Shown: positions 1-59,667 of the stretch, piece after piece
Position numbering within the stretch: position 1 is the first letter of the stretch
Layout of the letters: every line of letters starts with the position of its first letter
IMG/VR virus record: IMGVR_UViG_3300037245_000888
Coordinates: 1-64,000 of that record
Direction: 5' to 3' (one strand)
DNA from: a virus
Length of the DNA stretch: 64,000 nucleotides
Notes under the pieces: model-generated
Told to the model about the DNA's origin: nothing
Databases searched by the model: none
Seen by the model: only the letters and a program-made list of their open reading frames with translations
Made by a program: the position numbers and the translations under genes

Positions 1-232
1 TTTCCTTTAATCTATCTAAAGACCTCATTAATGTTCTATGATCATTTATAAAAGTTAGCTGCTTTAATTTGTTAGCTCTAATCTCAATAGTGTACCATGA
101 GCCATTTTTGGTTCCTATAAGTTTTCTATCTCCTAATATTAATAAAACAAATTTATCTATTGATTTCAACTTTGAGCTTAATAGAGCTTCTTGTTGTATT
201 GATATAAATTTTGTTTTAACTTTTTCTGTCAC
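1..232 (-). CDS. Truncated small protein, possible winged-helix DNA-binding N-terminus
   Basis: The gene runs off the left edge, so only its first 77 codons are visible. It begins with GTG at 232, preceded on the minus strand by GGAGGTG (plus positions 238-244); an ATG two bases upstream is followed at once by a stop, which decides the start. The readable part contains LKSIDKFVLLILG and KNGSWYTIEIRAN, a helix-rich pattern reminiscent of winged-helix replication or regulatory proteins. That assignment is only a guess. It is transcribed divergently from the gene at 703 and has its own promoter at 276-304. Confidence 0.7.
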   Translation of the reverse strand, partial: MTEKVKTKFISIQQEALLSSKLKSIDKFVLLILGDRKLIGTKNGSWYTIEIRANKLKQLTFINDHRTLMRSLDRLKE

Positions 233-13668: not shown

Positions 13669-14832
13669 ATGAAAGTAATATGCGTAGAAGATTATTTAAG
13701 CACAAGCAGAATATCAGTTGCTGTAGGAGATATATTGGAATGTGAAGGTGATAAGATTCTTAAAAACGACACTTGGATATGCGATATTAATAGTCCATTT
13801 GGCGAAAGGTACTTTGAAGAATATCACGAAGCGATTAAAAGTAATTACAACAATCAACTAACAAAAGAAGAATCAGATCATGTGGCACATACTTTAAACG
13901 AAAAGGAGAGTAATAAAATGAATGTAATTAAAGCGGTAAAAGAACTAAACATTGATACAAAAATATTAAAGTCAATTGAGCAATATATAGTTGACTCTGA
14001 TACTGTTAGATTAACACCTTCTGGATTAGCTATTGATGGTAAAGTTTTCTCTAGAAAGACTGAACAATTATTGGACGTAAGAGGTACAGAACTACCATTG
14101 GATATTCCTGTTGGATTCTGTATTCCTACTGATGCAAGTAATATTGCGAAAGGTGATATTATATATAATTCTGAAGGTAAAGCTTTCCATGTATTGTATG
14201 TTAATGAGAAGACTTTTGGCACATTTAATAAAAAGAAAACTCCTAAAGAAGTAATCTGTATTTCACCTAATGAAGATAGAAAGATTACAATGATACCCAC
14301 TGTAGATATATTTGGTAATCAAGTTTATAACAAATTGATCACACCATTTAATTTTGATATGGGATGTAATCCTTTATTAAATGTTGCTGCAGTATTAGGA
14401 ACGAGTATTATTAATAAAGATATTAATTCTGCTATTGATACCCTGTTACCACAATCATTAAAGTTGATTAGTAAGATTGATTTAAATGCTATAACTAGTG
14501 ATAAAAGAGTAGTATTCTTAAGTCCATTATTGATATTCTTATATAAAATGAGTAAAGATAAAGAGTTTGACTTGAATAGTGTTAAAGATTATATTTTCAA
14601 TATAGACAAGAAAACAAAGATCTTAATCGTTCTTGCATTAGCAATGGTATTATACATATCAAAAGATAAAATTGCAGAATTGATTATGTCAGACAGATTA
14701 GATAGAATTCCATTGGTAAATAAAGTAAGTAAGCCATTAGGTAGATTGCTGGTTAAGATACCTAGTGTAAAGTTGAGTGTGATTAAAGGATATAGTGATA
14801 GAATTGTTGGTATGTTTAAGAGTGGGGAGTAA
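13669..14832 (+). CDS. Two-part protein with C-terminal hydrophobic segments; internal start
   Basis: GGAGGAATT precedes ATG 13669. Residues 1-83 form a small SH3-like unit (KVICVEDYLSTSRISVAVGD). In the same frame AAAAGGAGAGTAATAAA immediately precedes a second ATG at 13918, giving a 304-residue product (MNVIKAVKELNIDTKIL). So two proteins, or a fusion created by a lost stop, are possible. The long part has a strand-rich middle and two hydrophobic segments at about 281-296 and 317-333 that may sit in the membrane. Its position directly after the GHKL ATPase suggests they work together. No family recognised. Confidence 0.75.
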   Translation: MKVICVEDYLSTSRISVAVGDILECEGDKILKNDTWICDINSPFGERYFEEYHEAIKSNYNNQLTKEESDHVAHTLNEKESNKMNVIKAVKELNIDTKILKSIEQYIVDSDTVRLTPSGLAIDGKVFSRKTEQLLDVRGTELPLDIPVGFCIPTDASNIAKGDIIYNSEGKAFHVLYVNEKTFGTFNKKKTPKEVICISPNEDRKITMIPTVDIFGNQVYNKLITPFNFDMGCNPLLNVAAVLGTSIINKDINSAIDTLLPQSLKLISKIDLNAITSDKRVVFLSPLLIFLYKMSKDKEFDLNSVKDYIFNIDKKTKILIVLALAMVLYISKDKIAELIMSDRLDRIPLVNKVSKPLGRLLVKIPSVKLSVIKGYSDRIVGMFKSGE

Positions 14833-16075: not shown

Positions 16076-16435
16076 ATGGAAAATAAGCTATTTGAACAAA
16101 TGCAAAATATTATTAAAAATGAATCACTACATGGTACTATTGTTCTATTGGATAATAAAGAAGATCGAGGAATAGGTAAAACTTCTAGCATTTCTATGTT
16201 AGCAGACATATATCAGTTAAAAGTAGGTAAGAAACATAACTATCCAGAATGTGGAATAAAGCTAAATACCAATGAAGATTATTATGCAGGTAAAATATAT
16301 AACTCTGAGGATATGTATATACTGGACGAAGGATTCACATTAAACGAAGTTAACATTTTGAAGAAGTATTATAATATCATATTTGCATTGGTTAATGTTA
16401 ATCAACTTAATGGATTTGTTATGGTTGAAAAATAA
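16076..16435 (+). CDS. Small P-loop ATPase-like protein (119 aa)
   Basis: AAAAGGAGTAAAC precedes the ATG. DRGIGKTSSIS (about residues 31-41) fits a Walker A loop, and MYILDEG further on fits Walker B. At 119 residues it is far shorter than usual AAA or RecA-type ATPases, so it may be a minimal NTP-binding domain or a decayed remnant. It follows a membrane protein and ends at the terminator 16444. Confidence 0.7.
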   Translation: MENKLFEQMQNIIKNESLHGTIVLLDNKEDRGIGKTSSISMLADIYQLKVGKKHNYPECGIKLNTNEDYYAGKIYNSEDMYILDEGFTLNEVNILKKYYNIIFALVNVNQLNGFVMVEK

Positions 16436-16443
16436 TAATAAGT

Positions 16444-16474
16444 AAAGTTAGTCTTAAATGATTAGCTTTATTTT
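16444..16474 (+). terminator. Rho-independent terminator
   Basis: AAAGTTAGTC and GATTAGCTTT pair over 10 bp (two wobbles) with a TTAAAT loop, followed by ATTTTATT. This is the last signal before the 2.2-kb gene-free region. Confidence 0.75.
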
Positions 16475-17497
16475 ATTGTCTGGATTATACCACATACAAA
16501 ACTACCATATTTGAATAAATTAATAAGTTATATGGTGATATGCTGCTGATCATATATAAATAGATTGTTTGTTAGATATTATATAATGTTATCGATATAG
16601 ATGTTAAATAAGCTTGTGAGGATAGGCTGTGAGAGGATTTAAATGGAATGTGGATAGATAGTATCAGAATAATATAGAGTGGATTGTATAGGGTTATAGA
16701 GCTGTTTAAATAGGTTAGTTAGTTTAGTAACTAAGTGATATAGTATATAGTCTGAGTTAGATATGTTGGAAATACTGGATTGTTATGGTCTGTGGTATGG
16801 AAATATGATGGAGTGGGTAGAAATGTGGATTTGTTACTTATATTTGGATAATGTGAATATATGTTGGAATGTGTTAGATATAGTGTTAATATGTGTTAAT
16901 GATGTGTGAGTATATGGTAAATAGAAGGTAATAAGGTGTAAATGGAAGGATGTGGGAATAGAGTGGTATATGAATGGAAGGTAGTGATAGTAATTGTTCG
17001 GAGAGTATGTATATGTTAAATATAGTGATTAGGATAGGGTAGAATGATAGTTATTAGGATTATGGTGTAATTGTATAGGATGGGTATAGATATAGTGTGA
17101 GAGGGTAAATTTGAGGTTATGTAGGGTGTGATGGATATTGTAGTAGTGTGTTGGGAATATTCGTGTGATAAAAGTAGATTTGATTGTTTGGATTAATATG
17201 ATTAGTAGGGAATTATTGGAATATTGTATAGTTGAGATAGTATTGTTATATTGTGATCTGGATTGATATGTAGTGATATAGGATATGAAACGCTAAAAAT
17301 TTTAGAAAAAATAATGGAAAGTTGTGTAGGGATGGGAAAGGTGAAAAAGTGTGAGATGTAAAGGTAGGGGTGGGTTGTGGGGTGATATGGATATAGTTGG
17401 ATTGAGTTGAGTAGGATGTAATGTGAATGTAATGGTATTCTGTGGAACAGTTATGGAATAGTCTACTTAGTAAATCTGGGCGAATGTCAAAGGTGGT
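16475..17497. other. Gene-free arm with almost no C on the + strand
   Basis: There is no plausible gene on either strand: stops are frequent and no ribosome site precedes an open frame. Counting by eye over 16801-17460 gives about 206 G and 8 C, an extreme positive GC skew. The octamer GTTAGATA occurs three times (16571, 16756, 16873), always in this orientation. The pattern suits unselected DNA at the end of a leading-strand-replicated arm. Confidence 0.8.
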
Positions 17498-17511
17498 AAA
17501 TATTGTAAACT
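17484..17511 (+). other. Weak dif-like (XerC/D) site candidate at the skew switch
   Basis: TATTGTAAACT (17501-17511) matches 9 of 11 bases of the Bacillus-type XerD half-site TTATGTAAACT. The preceding 11-bp half matches poorly (about 5 of 11). The wider GGTGGTAAA...TAAACTACC is an imperfect palindrome. What makes it notable is that it lies exactly where G-rich sequence gives way to C-rich. Tentative. Confidence 0.3.
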
Positions 17512-18596
17512 ACCCCCTATCCCTTGCCATTGGTAGATTCTGGATAATATGGAAAATTATATTATATATTCAATATGACAATTAAGTAATCCCAACGATC
17601 CCAGAAACATCCTAATATATGTCAGCTACTTCACATAATATGGTATTATGTAACTTCAATATTAATCTCATTATGAGACTGATAACAACTGATCCAGCAG
17701 CAATATACCATAAATTACCATATTATCAATTAATAGATAAATCTCCTAATATCTACCATATAATAGATAAATCAACATATTATCCATATTATGCCATATC
17801 CTACCCATATTTTACCATTTTCCATTATTTTACATTAATTGTTAGTTTCGCCCAATATTCGGCATACCTCGTTATACGAGCTTTCTTATAACACTAAGAA
17901 TGTACTTATCAATTGATAACTATAATTTCATCTAACTACCCCACTAACAAATAATCCTATCTAACTATTTAATTAATATTAACCTTATATCATATCTATC
18001 TAACTATATATAAATTATCAAACCAATTAGAATATCATCTAACTGTATCACTATATCACCTATGTTAGACTGCTATCTAACTACCATATTATACTTATCA
18101 TTTGACAACTATATCCAATCACCACCACTATACTAAGTATATACAATGTATATACAATCATCCCATATGATCCCATATGATCCCATCCCATAACATAAAA
18201 CAATACCTATACCAAACTTATGTTACAACTATTATTCATGTTATAGGATCATATAGGATCAATCACTCACATATAACACCAATCAACCATATCCTACTAT
18301 ATCGCCTGTATTCCCTCTCTATTCAATTATACATAACATGCTATCAATAACACCAATAACTAAATAACTATCAATATACCTTACACCTATGTTATATCAA
18401 CGCTTATGCATGATATACAATACCTATCTTATTATAGCTACCATATAACAGGATCACTATATTATAATATATACTGTTAACGTCTTATAAACTACCTGTA
18501 ATCCCTTTACAATCTAATCAATACAATAACGCCTTAATAACATAGTAATCACCTTACAACCCTATATAATGCTATACATAACCTAATCCAAGACAA
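17512..18596. other. Gene-free arm with few G on the + strand
   Basis: Mirror image of the preceding arm: over 17941-18360 I count about 101 C and 19 G. No gene is supported. It contains five copies of ATCTAACT at 17930, 17959, 17998, 18037 and 18075 (spacing 29, 39, 39, 38 bp). Three of them extend to TATCTAAC, the reverse complement of the GTTAGATA octamer of the other arm. Confidence 0.8.
18130..18186. repeat. Short tandem repeats in the C-rich arm
   Basis: GTATATACAAT occurs twice in tandem, then TCCCATATGA twice in tandem followed by a partial third copy (TCCCAT). These are simple repeats without evident coding role. Confidence 0.6.
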
Positions 18597-18626
18597 TAAA
18601 AAAAAGAATACCATTTCTGATATTCT
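18597..18626 (-). terminator. Strong minus-strand terminator
   Basis: Read on the minus strand: AGAATATCA, GAAA loop, TGGTATTCT (9 bp, one wobble) and eight T. It ends the leftward gene block before the gene-free C-rich arm. Confidence 0.85.
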
Positions 18627-18641
18627 AATATTAACTTTATT

Positions 18642-19097
18642 CTATTTATTGAAATACTTTTCTACTATTAATTCACACATACCGAACCCAAATCCTTCAC
18701 CACAAACAATTTTATATTTTTTATTAAAGAAGTCAGACACCTTTTCACTTGAACCATAATTGGTATAATCATTATCTTTTCCATATACAACCCAACTCCA
18801 AGCACCGCCACTTAATTGATGAGTACCAGCGTATGTCCTTTCAATAACAGGGAATAAATCAAGGTTTTCACATTCCTTTAATATCTTAACTAATTTTATA
18901 GCATTTTTTGTTATGCCATACCTTTGATTACAATATCTAAATGCATGATAATTTAATAATATTCTTCTATCCCATTCGCCAGTCAAATAGTTATCTCTAA
19001 CCCATTTTACTAATACTTCATCACTTTTATTAAATGATATTCTTAAATCCCTTAAAAGGTAATCAAGTGCTAAACTAACAGGGTAATTATTATTCAT
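18642..19097 (-). CDS. Unknown protein (151 aa)
   Basis: The ATG overlaps the upstream stop by 8 nt behind AAGGAGACTTTAAAA. The product is soluble with a helical first half and a Gly/aromatic-rich middle (HQLSGGAWSWVVYGKDN). No family recognised. Last gene of the leftward block. Confidence 0.8.
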   Translation of the reverse strand: MNNNYPVSLALDYLLRDLRISFNKSDEVLVKWVRDNYLTGEWDRRILLNYHAFRYCNQRYGITKNAIKLVKILKECENLDLFPVIERTYAGTHQLSGGAWSWVVYGKDNDYTNYGSSEKVSDFFNKKYKIVCGEGFGFGMCELIVEKYFNK

Positions 19098-19560
19098 TTT
19101 TAAAGTCTCCTTCTATAATTGTATAGTCTTCTTCATCTTCAATAGTCCACTCTAAATCGCATATATCTCTAATATCAGCCCATTTAGTATGCTTTTCATT
19201 TTCCCATATAACTATAAATTTTTCTGGCATTTCTTGATTAAAGAAGTTTAAAGCAACTTTCATAATTTTATCATTTAAAGCTTTTTTCTTTTGTTCATCT
19301 GTTTTCTTTACTGTTTTAACTTCTATCATAACAACATTATCAGAATCTACATGTTGAAATAAATCTTTATCGTCAATTACTAACCAAGTAGGAATATATA
19401 AATCATTGTCAATCTCTTTAGTCAAACTCATAGCTACATATGAGAAATACTCTTTTTTATTCGAATACAAGATACTGTTATTTTCTCCAACTTTAAAACC
19501 ATATGCTTTATCAGTAGTAATATAACTATTTCTGTTTACTTTATAAAACGCTTTTTTCAT
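19090..19560 (-). CDS. Unknown protein (156 aa)
   Basis: AAAGGAGTTCATC precedes the ATG. Residues VVMIEVKTVKKTDEQ and a preceding acidic strand recall the E-x-K part of PD-(D/E)XK folds, but the complete nuclease signature is not visible, so I leave it unassigned. It is the first gene after the palindrome-flanked promoter at 19617-19645. Confidence 0.75.
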   Translation of the reverse strand: MKKAFYKVNRNSYITTDKAYGFKVGENNSILYSNKKEYFSYVAMSLTKEIDNDLYIPTWLVIDDKDLFQHVDSDNVVMIEVKTVKKTDEQKKKALNDKIMKVALNFFNQEMPEKFIVIWENEKHTKWADIRDICDLEWTIEDEEDYTIIEGDFKNE

Positions 19561-20753: not shown

Positions 20754-20801
20754 AATTCCCATATCCTTCCAATCGATACCAACTAACTTATATCATCTAT
20801 T

Positions 20802-20830
20802 ATACTATACCTATTATATATAAATGTCAA
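20802..20830 (-). promoter_or_regulatory. Minus-strand sigma-A-type promoter
   Basis: On the minus strand TTGACA (20830-20825), a 17-nt spacer and TAGTAT (20807-20802). The gap 20831-21114 to its right is C-rich, gene-free, and holds nothing else I can name. Confidence 0.8.
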
Positions 20831-21114
20831 TAACTATTTAAAGAAATACCTTAATCAATACACCACCTAATCAATCCCCTATATTCCCATAACCATTCCA
20901 CTCACTAAAACCCTATACAATCCCACTACAACGCCTTATAATCAATTAACACTATTATCCCTATGTTATCGTATTACCCTATCAATTATAAACCCTTACA
21001 AAGCCATTTAATAAGATATGATTATCAATTTATACATTCAGCAGCCAACCACCTAAATTTTACCATATTGCAGCTAAGCATATAATAGACATATTAATAG
21101 GATCAATCCTAACG

Positions 21115-21147
21115 TAAAAAAGAACCCTATATAATAATAGAGTTCTT
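21115..21147 (-). terminator. Strong minus-strand terminator
   Basis: On the minus strand AAGAACTCTAT, a TATTAT loop, ATAGGGTTCTT (11 bp, one wobble) and six T. It ends the operon 25087-21157. Confidence 0.85.
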
Positions 21148-21156
21148 AAGTTTGAT

Positions 21157-25312: not shown

Positions 25313-25828
25313 TTATCCACAGATTGCAGCAATGGGATCAAAAGCAGCTATATCAACGGTTACAAGTGATTTACTAAAATAGTTATCAACAGATTTCATT
25401 ATTTTAAAACAAAAGTTATCCACAGGTAAAATAGATTTTATTGTTTTACTTATATAGAAGAAAGATATCAATTTTTAGACTTTTGAATCCTTGTATAGTA
25501 GGCTATGACTGGTATGCAGCCATTTTAAATTATGGGAATATTTATTGATCTTTAAATTGTTATAAAATAAATGGTAAAATGTGGTAGAATAATTAAGTTT
25601 AATTAATTGTATAAAATCTATTGACAAATAATATATAAATATGGTAGAATGGGCTGACACCCTTTTAAAGTTGTTTGTAATTTTAATGTTATTAACAGTT
25701 GTGGATAACTTTTGTGGATATGTGGATAAAATGTGGATAACTTCTTGAAATTGTGGATAACTCATGATATACTCTATTTAGGGTTAGTTATCCCCAGAAA
25801 CTGGGGATAAAAATAAATCTGTGGATAA
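25313..25828. other. Replication origin with DnaA-box clusters
   Basis: Seven perfect DnaA boxes occur: TTATCCACA at 25313 and 25416, and the reverse form TGTGGATAA at 25700, 25721, 25732, 25752 and 25820. Single-mismatch boxes lie at 25383, 25713, 25788 and 25802. The two clusters face each other across about 275 bp of AT-rich DNA (25425-25699), which could unwind. The 25788 and 25802 near-boxes form a perfect hairpin (TTATCCCCAG, AAA, CTGGGGATAA). No phage dnaA is seen in the window, so host DnaA is the probable initiator. Confidence 0.85.
25577..25650 (+). repeat. Iterated GGTAGAAT element in the AT-rich origin segment
   Basis: AAATGTGGTAGAAT (25577-25590) and AAATATGGTAGAAT (25637-25650) are near-identical copies 60 bp apart. 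The second ends in the TAGAAT hexamer of a possible promoter (TTGACA 25621-25626, 18-nt spacer). They may be initiator or unwinding repeats. Confidence 0.5.
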
Positions 25829-25856: not shown

Positions 25857-25927
25857 ATTGACATAATCTCAAAATTGTAATCATTACAGATAAACAGTTT
25901 ATGTCAATCTAATTGTAATGATTACAA
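25857..25927. promoter_or_regulatory. Compound palindrome next to the origin (Fur-family-like 7-1-7 boxes)
   Basis: TTGTAAT-C-ATTACAG (25875-25889) and TTGTAAT-G-ATTACAA (25913-25927) are 7-1-7 dyads with centres 38 bp apart. The first is enclosed by perfect 10-bp arms ATTGACATAA (25857-25866) and TTATGTCAAT (25899-25908). The format resembles operators of Fur/PerR/Zur-type regulators. The actual binder is unknown. Confidence 0.5.
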
Positions 25928-26640
25928 ATTTATCACGATATCAATATTCACATTATGAGTATAAAATAATAGTTGGATATCCCACTAGATAAACATAAAA
26001 TCATTTTCCATAATATGTTAAACAGAAAAAATTTATCCAAAAATTTACCAAATATTGGTAAAAATCAATTCTGAAAATCCCATATTTACGAACCCAAAAA
26101 TTTCCAAGAACACGTGAAAGTAAATTGCAGCCTCAGACATATCTCTCCCACCGGCCACGCACACCTCACAATATATTTCCTTACCGGTAGCAAATCTTTC
26201 TATCATATAATCTACACAATATATTCTCATCTCACCAACACAACATATCTTAACAATCCACTCTGCTCATCTCCAATCAATCCTCACAATCCCATATCTC
26301 ATCTGTCTCCTATACTATCCCAGAATACCCATCTCACCACATTTGTCCACTATACAATCTATCCACTCAATAAAACTGATCGTCTCCACTGACATCATCT
26401 ATATCACATTTCCAATCTCGTCACATATTCTACCTATTAATAGTGACCAATCATGCACATAACAGAATATATACCTAGATTACATATTTGTTCCATTACA
26501 ACAAAACTAATCACACACTACCCTAAACAACTTACATAACTATCTCACTTGTACTCTCACAACACCGATCAAGCACCGTCATAACAATATATCGATAACA
26601 TGATGCTAATTATCCATTGAACGATAACTGTGTTTATATG
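25928..26640. other. Gene-free C-rich origin flank
   Basis: No gene is supported. It is C-rich on the + strand until about 26630, where GC skew reverses to G-rich. It contains the palindrome TTTACCAAATATTGGTAAA (26044-26062, 8-bp arms) and two CGATAAC repeats (26593, 26622) at the switch. The stretch 26641-26850 is G-rich and also gene-free. Confidence 0.7.
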
Positions 26641-35129: not shown

Positions 35130-35197
35130 TAAATCAGAAGTTAAGATAATTAAACAAACAGATCACAACAAACAATAATAATATAGTGGAGGTAGTT

Positions 35198-36076
35198 ATG
35201 AGTGAGAGTATGTTAATTAAATCAAATTTGGTAGATGGTTTCGTGAGCTTCAAAATTAAAATTAATGTATTAGATAAAACAATATCAGAATATAAAGCAA
35301 GTGTAGATAAATTTATCATTTGGTTACAAGATCAGGATAATGCTAAACTTGACAAGTCATCTACTGATAATATGTTGGTAAGTGTAACTCGCAAGATAGC
35401 GCAATCGTATGTGTTTGTAATTAGAGAGACATTGAAATTTAATAGCACTAAGAAAGCGATAGCAGGTATTCTTCAACTTTACAATTTTATCATGATGGAA
35501 ATGGATTTACTTGGAAATGCTTTTAGTGGATTACAGGTGCCAAAGGATAGTGTTACTGAAATTAAAGAATACATTTCATTAAAGGAATCTAATATAATAT
35601 TAAATTCATGTGAAAGTACTCAACACAGATTACTAATTGGACTGGCTTTTAAATCTGGATTAAGAATTCAAGAAATTTCTAAAATTGAAGTCGCTAATAT
35701 TGATTTAGAAAACAAAACGATTGATGTATTGAGAAAAGGTAGACGTATGCGTAGATTAGATATTGCTGCTGAATTAATTAATGATTTAACTATTCAAGTT
35801 GAGAATTGTAATGCACTTAATCACACCTTCTTATTTCAAGGTAGAAGAGGTATTAAGCCATTGACAACCAAATCTATCAGAGATACTTTTGATGGTTATC
35901 TTGGCAAACTAGACTTGAATTCTGACTACGTATTCCATAGTTTAAGAAAGGTTTATAGTACAGATTTATATTATAATGAGAATAAGACAATGCATGAGAT
36001 AAGTAAATTATTAGATCATAGTAATACCGGAATTACTGAATTGTATGTTTTGGATAAGAAGTATGTTGAGCTATAA
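35198..36076 (+). CDS. Tyrosine recombinase (XerC/D-like integrase family)
   Basis: GTGGAGGTAGTT precedes ATG 35198. The N-terminal SAM-like core-binding domain covers about residues 1-115. The catalytic domain has the first Arg in SGLRIQEIS (about 156), HSLRKVYS with His and second Arg (about 247-250), LLDHSNTG with the second His, and Tyr283 in ELYVL as probable nucleophile. It breaks and rejoins DNA at paired sites. At 292 residues it is Xer-sized, so dimer resolution of a circular genome is as likely as integration. No att site is visible next to it. The dif-like sequence at 17.5 kb is a candidate target. Confidence 0.85.
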   Translation: MSESMLIKSNLVDGFVSFKIKINVLDKTISEYKASVDKFIIWLQDQDNAKLDKSSTDNMLVSVTRKIAQSYVFVIRETLKFNSTKKAIAGILQLYNFIMMEMDLLGNAFSGLQVPKDSVTEIKEYISLKESNIILNSCESTQHRLLIGLAFKSGLRIQEISKIEVANIDLENKTIDVLRKGRRMRRLDIAAELINDLTIQVENCNALNHTFLFQGRRGIKPLTTKSIRDTFDGYLGKLDLNSDYVFHSLRKVYSTDLYYNENKTMHEISKLLDHSNTGITELYVLDKKYVEL

Positions 36077-59067: not shown

Positions 59068-59667
59068 ATGAGTGTAGTTGTAGCAATTAAAGATGATGAT
59101 AAAGTATGGATGGCTTGTGATAGTCAAGTTTCTCAGGGTTACAGTAAAATGACACTGACTAACAGTAATAACTATAAAATAGTAAGACCTAAAAATGAAA
59201 AGAATACATTGGTTGGTATCGTTGGTAATTTAAAATTACAAAACGCTATGAAAATACAAGATTCATTTATAGATGAATTGATTGTGCTTAAAGGTGAATT
59301 TAATTTTAAAGAAATGTTTACTAAGGTCATGCCAAAGATATTTGAAATAGCTAAAAAGTATGGTGTGTCTGAAAAAGCAAAAGATCAAGACAGCGTTTAT
59401 CTTAACGGAGTGATAATATTTGCCCATAAAGATATGTTATTTAAATTGGACTCTGATGGGTGTGTAACAGAGGTTGACGACTATATTGCTACTGGTAGTG
59501 GTGGTAGATTATCTACTGGTTATTTAAATCAATTAGATAATACTGAGAGCAAAAGAGATAGTATAATCAAAGCTGTTAAGGCTGCTTGTCAAACAGATTT
59601 ATATGTAAATTATCCAATTATTGTTACAAATACTATGGATGATGAGTTTATTGTTATTAATAAATAG
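59068..59667 (+). CDS. HslV/proteasome-beta-like Ntn hydrolase (199 aa)
   Basis: AAGGAGAATAAAAT precedes the ATG. The opening SVVVAIKDDDKVWMACDSQV matches HslV (ClpQ/CodW) proteins, whose N-terminal Thr or Ser is the nucleophile; here Ser2 would be exposed after Met removal. GIVGNLK and ATGSGGRLSTG also fit the fold. HslV needs the ATPase HslU, which is not seen in the window, so it may pair with host HslU or act alone. Roles could include prohead or regulator proteolysis. Confidence 0.8.
   Translation: MSVVVAIKDDDKVWMACDSQVSQGYSKMTLTNSNNYKIVRPKNEKNTLVGIVGNLKLQNAMKIQDSFIDELIVLKGEFNFKEMFTKVMPKIFEIAKKYGVSEKAKDQDSVYLNGVIIFAHKDMLFKLDSDGCVTEVDDYIATGSGGRLSTGYLNQLDNTESKRDSIIKAVKAACQTDLYVNYPIIVTNTMDDEFIVINK

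Follow-up and report, generated by a model that had tools for sequence, protein, structure and literature searches.

A gene-free, strand-polar element in a large gut phage and in Lactococcus 949-group phages: a possible origin-like site of DNA replication

Origins of the oriC type are built on clusters of DnaA boxes in gene-free DNA at the borders of gene clusters. The phage element described here resembles them in these points, but it differs in having strand-polar arms of 0.4-1.1 kb, the opposite sign of skew, and no dnaA gene. In animal G-rich/G4 origin elements (OGRE) and in R-loop-primed origins (ColE1, the mitochondrial H strand, and T4), a G-rich strand of defined polarity lies beside the replication start. 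The phage element differs from them in its pair of mirrored arms, which reach up to 1 kb. The transcripts of rut regions are likewise C-rich, G-poor, and antisense to genes. Compared with them, the phage element is far longer and is mirrored around a conserved core, and it occurs in phages of a host that is expected to lack Rho. Rut sites of Bacillus subtilis contain little G, favor both C and U over G, and mostly lie antisense to genes (PMC12350095). Full-text searches of open-access papers returned nothing relevant as an earlier description of such phage elements, and no discussion of the region came up when the phiL47 paper and the paper on the AM and LW phages were searched by term.

The window analyzed here is a stretch of 64,000 nucleotides, positions 1 to 64,000 of the record IMGVR_UViG_3300037245_000888, from a virus of a gut bacterium. 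In its gene-free stretch at 16482..18590, one strand is rich in G and then flips abruptly to C. The plus strand has A215 C8 G206 T231 at 16801-17460 and A163 C101 G19 T137 at 17941-18360. These are exactly the G and C counts from which an earlier note on this DNA had claimed a near-absolute strand asymmetry. The GC skew over the 660 bases of the left arm is 0.93, and the runner-up 660-base window elsewhere in the whole 111.8-kb record reaches 0.69. The cumulative skew has a local peak at ~17,508, in agreement with the abrupt flip near 17.50 kb seen before. If C had a coding-like share of 0.25, the chance of 8 or fewer C among 214 G+C would be P = 3e-17; with a share of 0.15, it would be 9e-8. 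Three C-free runs of 146-162 bases, all in the left arm, are the longest in the genome. The purity of the two arms is unequal; C is ~1% (1.2%) in the left core, and G is ~6% in the right arm.

The left arm, G-rich and C-poor, extends over 16482..17500 with its core at 16801-17460. The right arm, C-rich and G-poor on the plus strand, extends over 17521..18590. The switch center GTAAACTACCCCCTAT at 17505..17520 (plus strand) includes a C5/G5 run; the whole 111.8 kb has only three of these. The G-run stretch adjoining the switch at 17323..17390 (plus strand) contains the most G4-prone 60-mer of the genome, with a G4Hunter-type score of 1.27; no such propensity is seen in the right arm. The arms are also the genome's windows most depleted of AA/TT (~0.56-0.78 vs. 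0.96 ± 0.08). The C clusters of the right arm (17501-18590) show ~9.5-nt phasing, and only 1 of 500 shuffles was as strong in the 8.5-11.5 band. In the left arm, G shows autocorrelation at 10. Strong depletion of AA and TT with preference for AT/TA is seen in all arms of this phage (16482-18590 and 26100-26600), not in those of the gut phage G006 described below.

Both ends of the element coincide with intrinsic terminators of opposing convergent gene clusters (16.43-16.48 kb, plus; 18.59-18.63 kb, minus). The terminator of cluster A at 16432..16484 (plus strand) has a stem and a U-rich tail, with an RNA fold of -15.7 kcal/mol (z -5.4). That of cluster B at 18586..18640 (minus strand) has an 8-U run and a fold of -9.9 kcal/mol (z -2.1). 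The skew thus starts where the flanking transcription should stop. The last gene of cluster A (16076..16435, plus strand, 119 aa) and the last gene of cluster B (18642..19097, minus strand, 151 aa) belong to no Pfam family.

The gene-free nature of the region, also pointed out earlier, stands. There is no convincing ORF in the element, and Rfam gave zero matches across the window. No 3-base periodicity was detected in the element, while the DNA polymerase gene and the gene at 13669-14832 were positive; this test is fallible, as it was flat also on two genes at 18642-19560. Hidden coding was rejected on the absence of periodicity. A decayed giant palindrome was also rejected, as the left arm aligned against the reversed right arm scored 57 and shuffles scored 44.5 ± 9.7. 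By nearest-neighbor calculation, duplex stability in the arms deviates from the mean of the genome by no more than ~2 sd, and there is no easily melted AT-rich stretch, so low-melting DNA was rejected as the selected target. R-loop energy was dropped as a selected target, since its signal in the arms is only moderate (z about -2). Promoters in the region are at chance level. Repeats are short and weak, with no array of tandem iterons. Enrichment of CTA primase sites is limited to the left arm.

The record is 111,832 bases long and has an exact terminal overlap of 127 bases (window 1-127), giving a circle of ~111.7 kb. It is classed as linear, yet it is circularly closed through this overlap. 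Its genes form four clusters: A (plus) to 16.4 kb, B (minus) at 18.6-25.1 kb, C (plus) from 26.9 to ~65 kb, and D (minus) to the end. They encode a DnaE-type polymerase, a DnaB-like helicase, an NAD-dependent ligase, a RecD2-like helicase, and a phage integrase. None of the genes was recognized as a phage initiator. The integrase family gene at 35186-36076 suggests that the phage is temperate or resolves dimers, in contrast to the 949 group. The product of 59068-59667 has a Pfam match to a proteasome subunit, in a phage. A further gene-free C-rich stretch (C92/G23) lies at 20763-21156 within the minus-strand cluster B.

Eight perfect DnaA boxes are present in the window against 1.2 expected. 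Seven of them, TTATCCACA, form an array at 25313..25828 in the divergent junction between clusters B and C. A second gene-free arm, C-rich and G-poor, adjoins this array at 26100..26600 (G14/C103 in the best 300 bases). From their sequence, the array at 25313-25828 and the arm at 26100-26600 are together a likely candidate for the replication origin of this phage. A paired motif, AATTGTAATSATTACA, is found near the array at 25,873 and 25,911. The nearest perfect DnaA box lies more than 2 kb from the switch at 17.50 kb, which is 8 kb away from the array.

Neither the flanking proteins nor the single polymerase sequence revealed close relatives, and no near DNA match to the window was found among phages. 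A polymerase alignment yielded 80 IMG/VR loci and 25 loci on bacterial contigs, mostly of Firmicutes. Among the 17 phage records scanned, including that of the window, comparable arms were found only in G006 and G005, which are two records of one phage; weaker arms were found in G016. Among the same 17, a DnaA array is common only to the window phage and G006/G005, which also have the purest arms. In G006, the switch from G to C is at 94.86 kb; five DnaA-like boxes lie within 60-130 bp of it. A C-rich arm lies at 107.6 kb. The switch and this arm are at the two ends of a minus-strand cluster which includes a homolog of a gene of cluster B. Thus, the layout of G006 corresponds to that of the window phage. 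The genes on the two sides of the G006 switch do not converge.

Lactococcus phage WRP3 came up in a scan for DnaA-box arrays. Nine genomes of the 949 group were compared, including Audreyjarvisvirus WRP3, phiL47, LW81, AM1, AM4, P1048, and 949, and also PMBT69. In the annotated map of WRP3, plus-strand genes reach 14.20 kb, a gene-free stretch occupies 14.20-15.68 kb, and minus-strand genes continue to 21.4 kb. A DnaA array at 23.07-23.43 kb lies in another gene-free stretch, and plus-strand genes resume at 24.0 kb. The order A (plus), switch, B (minus), DnaA array, and C (plus) is common to the window phage and the 949 group. They share the four-cluster layout, a convergent gene-free switch from G to C between two terminators, a DnaA array ~8 kb off at the divergent junction, and homologous replication and structural genes. 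These proteins are ~23-35% identical between the window phage and WRP3, and the polymerases about 23-26%. The 949 group is unlike the window phage in having DnaA boxes and a longer conserved core within the switch region, and its arms are more G4-prone. No WRP3-related plasmids were found.

The switch is present in 9/9 members of the 949 group, with a skew of +0.42 to +0.75 on the left and -0.37 to -0.63 on the right. Perfect DnaA boxes are also present in 9/9, usually two or three, with one in phiL47 and P1048 and at least seven in PMBT69. They have a fixed place, left of the G-rich arm. Sequence is most conserved in the DnaA boxes, with an identity of 0.90-0.96, and in the switch core GGTAAAAACCCACCCCCCTATTTTT, with 0.92 over ~100 bp. 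The core is 0.85 identical even to PMBT69, the most diverged member, against a background of 0.51. In the arms, identity falls to 0.44-0.83 and the composition is kept. About 90% of the pairwise differences in the left core are among A, G, and T; A/T and G/T transversions, as opposed to the transitions expected of deamination, make up 47% of the differences. The right core changes at about the pace of the fourfold sites of the neighboring gene (0.66 vs. 0.65). The fourfold sites of WRP3 lack comparable skew (G48/C33). The earlier note proposed a fixed point and a comparison with related genomes; in these nine phages the switch indeed stays at the same place while the sequence drifts. From this pattern of letters, selection appears to hold the strand composition itself.

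The element of the window phage is not alignable to that of the 949 group. Its center and the 949-group core GGTAAAAACCYACCCCCCYAT show a loose resemblance which is suggestive only. Homology between them is not supported, as the local alignment is not significant and all they have in common is a ACCCCCTAT-like string. When either core string was scanned for, only unrelated, unskewed contigs and 949 phages were returned. In LW81 (L361, 831-3024), the element is partly tandem-duplicated in the order G, C, G, C within a 2.2-kb gene-free region. In PMBT69 (L367, 2977-4431), nearly all of the perfect DnaA boxes are left of the switch. The deposited annotation of PMBT69 fills this region with tiny minus-strand ORFs, which are apparently spurious.

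The element is tentatively considered to be a non-coding, origin-like cis element of phage DNA replication, whose arms would be selected for composition rather than for a motif; we give this reading, drawn from sequence comparison, somewhat less than an even chance. Host DnaA, a phage initiator, or both would open the core. On each side of the switch, the strand running 5' to 3' away from it lacks G and would be the strand on which a DnaB-type helicase travels. Such helicase strips would account for the polarity and the symmetry. The G-rich complement could fold into G4 or pair with RNA, leaving the helicase strand single, and this would account for an enrichment of G beyond mere removal of C. 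Selection would then maintain composition, not a motif, yielding two outward loading strips and a bidirectional origin.

Several observations support an origin. The window phage, G006, and WRP3 with its relatives represent three diverged lineages with one architecture. The polarity is always G then C, 5' to 3', in all switches examined. In the window phage, in G006, and in WRP3, the 60-mers with the highest G4 propensity fall in the arms, and in the latter two phages they are on the plus strand at the left and on the minus strand at the right. In the 949 group, the element lies between opposing terminators and borders the early gene cluster, and a second DnaA array is at the other end of that cluster. 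Against an origin, the window's own switch has no nearby perfect DnaA box, the skew of the arms is opposite in sign to the usual leading-strand skew, and duplex stability is ordinary. The right arm is neither G4-prone nor specially unstructured. Such arms are also not general at DnaA arrays, as only ~2-3 of 120 DnaA-array loci from viral contigs have them. The wider proposal, that mirrored arms of ~0.4-1.1 kb, kept G-only or C-only by selection around a short conserved core and otherwise free to drift, carry their information in strand composition and start or direct replication in distant large phages of both Clostridia-like hosts and Lactococcus, is somewhat more doubtful.

The earlier note ascribed the asymmetry to C deamination on an exposed strand. 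A purely mutational asymmetry, from exposed-strand deamination during replication or transcription, would suit gene-free DNA, an abrupt switch, and drifting arms. Deamination does not explain the arms, since a C-to-T process predicts T>A in the left arm and cannot raise G. The arms have no T excess (A/T 215/231 in the left arm), and G in the left arm is ~4-fold above that at fourfold sites (G 31% and C 1.2% in the arm vs. G 7% and C 6% at fourfold sites of plus-strand genes on the left side). The fourfold sites in the genes nearest the switch are barely skewed on the coding strand (G12/C12 left, G20/C8 right), and the AA/TT depletion is a second signature that deamination does not predict. With the strongly conserved core between the arms and the many A/T and G/T changes in the left core of the 949 group, a mutational origin is very improbable. 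An assembly join or chimera at 17.5 kb, or joined genome ends as the earlier note alternatively supposed, would explain the abrupt change in composition. It is hardly credible, as the contig closes elsewhere by its 127-base overlap and nine independent isolate genomes have the same element at the same place. The third suggestion, that opposite replication strands meet at the switch, agrees with the sign of the skew, which would suit a terminus. It does not hold against the position of the switch, only 8 kb from the DnaA array in the closed ~111.7-kb genome and not opposite to it, against the homologous element that keeps DnaA boxes inside, or against the genome-wide cumulative skew, whose maximum is at ~65.8 kb, not 17.5 kb.

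A related alternative, in which the meeting of strands is taken as a function and not as a source of mutations, is a barrier or terminus, where the arms stop forks or RNA polymerase by a G4 or R-loop roadblock at the meeting point of convergent traffic. The convergent junction in the window and the 949 group, the G-rich RNA that would arise from both sides, the genome's most G4-prone sites, and a skew sign suiting leading strands arriving from both sides are all in its favor. It is nevertheless unlikely; the homologous switch of G006 does not lie between convergent genes, both clusters are already closed off by strong terminators ahead of the arms, R-loop energy is moderate, and the conserved DnaA boxes are left unexplained. 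Moreover, the genome's other convergent junction, at 65.7 kb, is without arms and carries an ordinary hairpin; a (TGAT)n repeat lies beside this hairpin at ~65.65-65.70 kb. Less probable again is a bidirectional Rho-dependent terminator or insulator, in which transcripts crossing the switch turn C-rich, G-poor, and rut-like and are ended by host Rho. Each arm is C-rich and G-poor on its read-through strand, and the antisense RNA of the left arm is almost structureless (-0.8 kcal per 120 nt vs. a mean of -14.6). Rho was detected in 7 of the 10 genomes that have genes for related polymerases, by a search in which only 8 of 12 controls passed the cut-off. The nine phages infect Lactococcus lactis, which is expected to lack Rho, an expectation compatible with the controls of this search; the element is kept in them all the same. 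The right arm is outside the top rut-like stretches, its C-rich strand is not specially unstructured, and its RNA is more structured than shuffles; the DnaA boxes and the switch core are again unexplained. The composition of the arms matches that of B. subtilis Rut sites (PMC12350095), and Streptococcus pneumoniae, of the same family as L. lactis, is without Rho (PMC6212727). A site of DNA packaging or recombination, or a plasmid-like partition site, would fit a fixed, gene-free element with a conserved core in the 949 group, and the ~9.5-nt phasing of the right arm in the window. It is quite improbable, as no terminase or partition gene was identified near the element and there is no iteron array.

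If the origin-like reading is true, selection can produce extreme local skew in non-coding DNA, and such skew need not mean mutation or an assembly artefact. The element would offer a natural system for the role of strand composition in helicase loading, G4s, or R-loops. Phage origins would be encodable by base composition and polarity instead of conserved motifs, and motif searches would miss them. For the large 949-like phages, which are relevant to dairy fermentation, the element would be a testable candidate for the site where copying starts.
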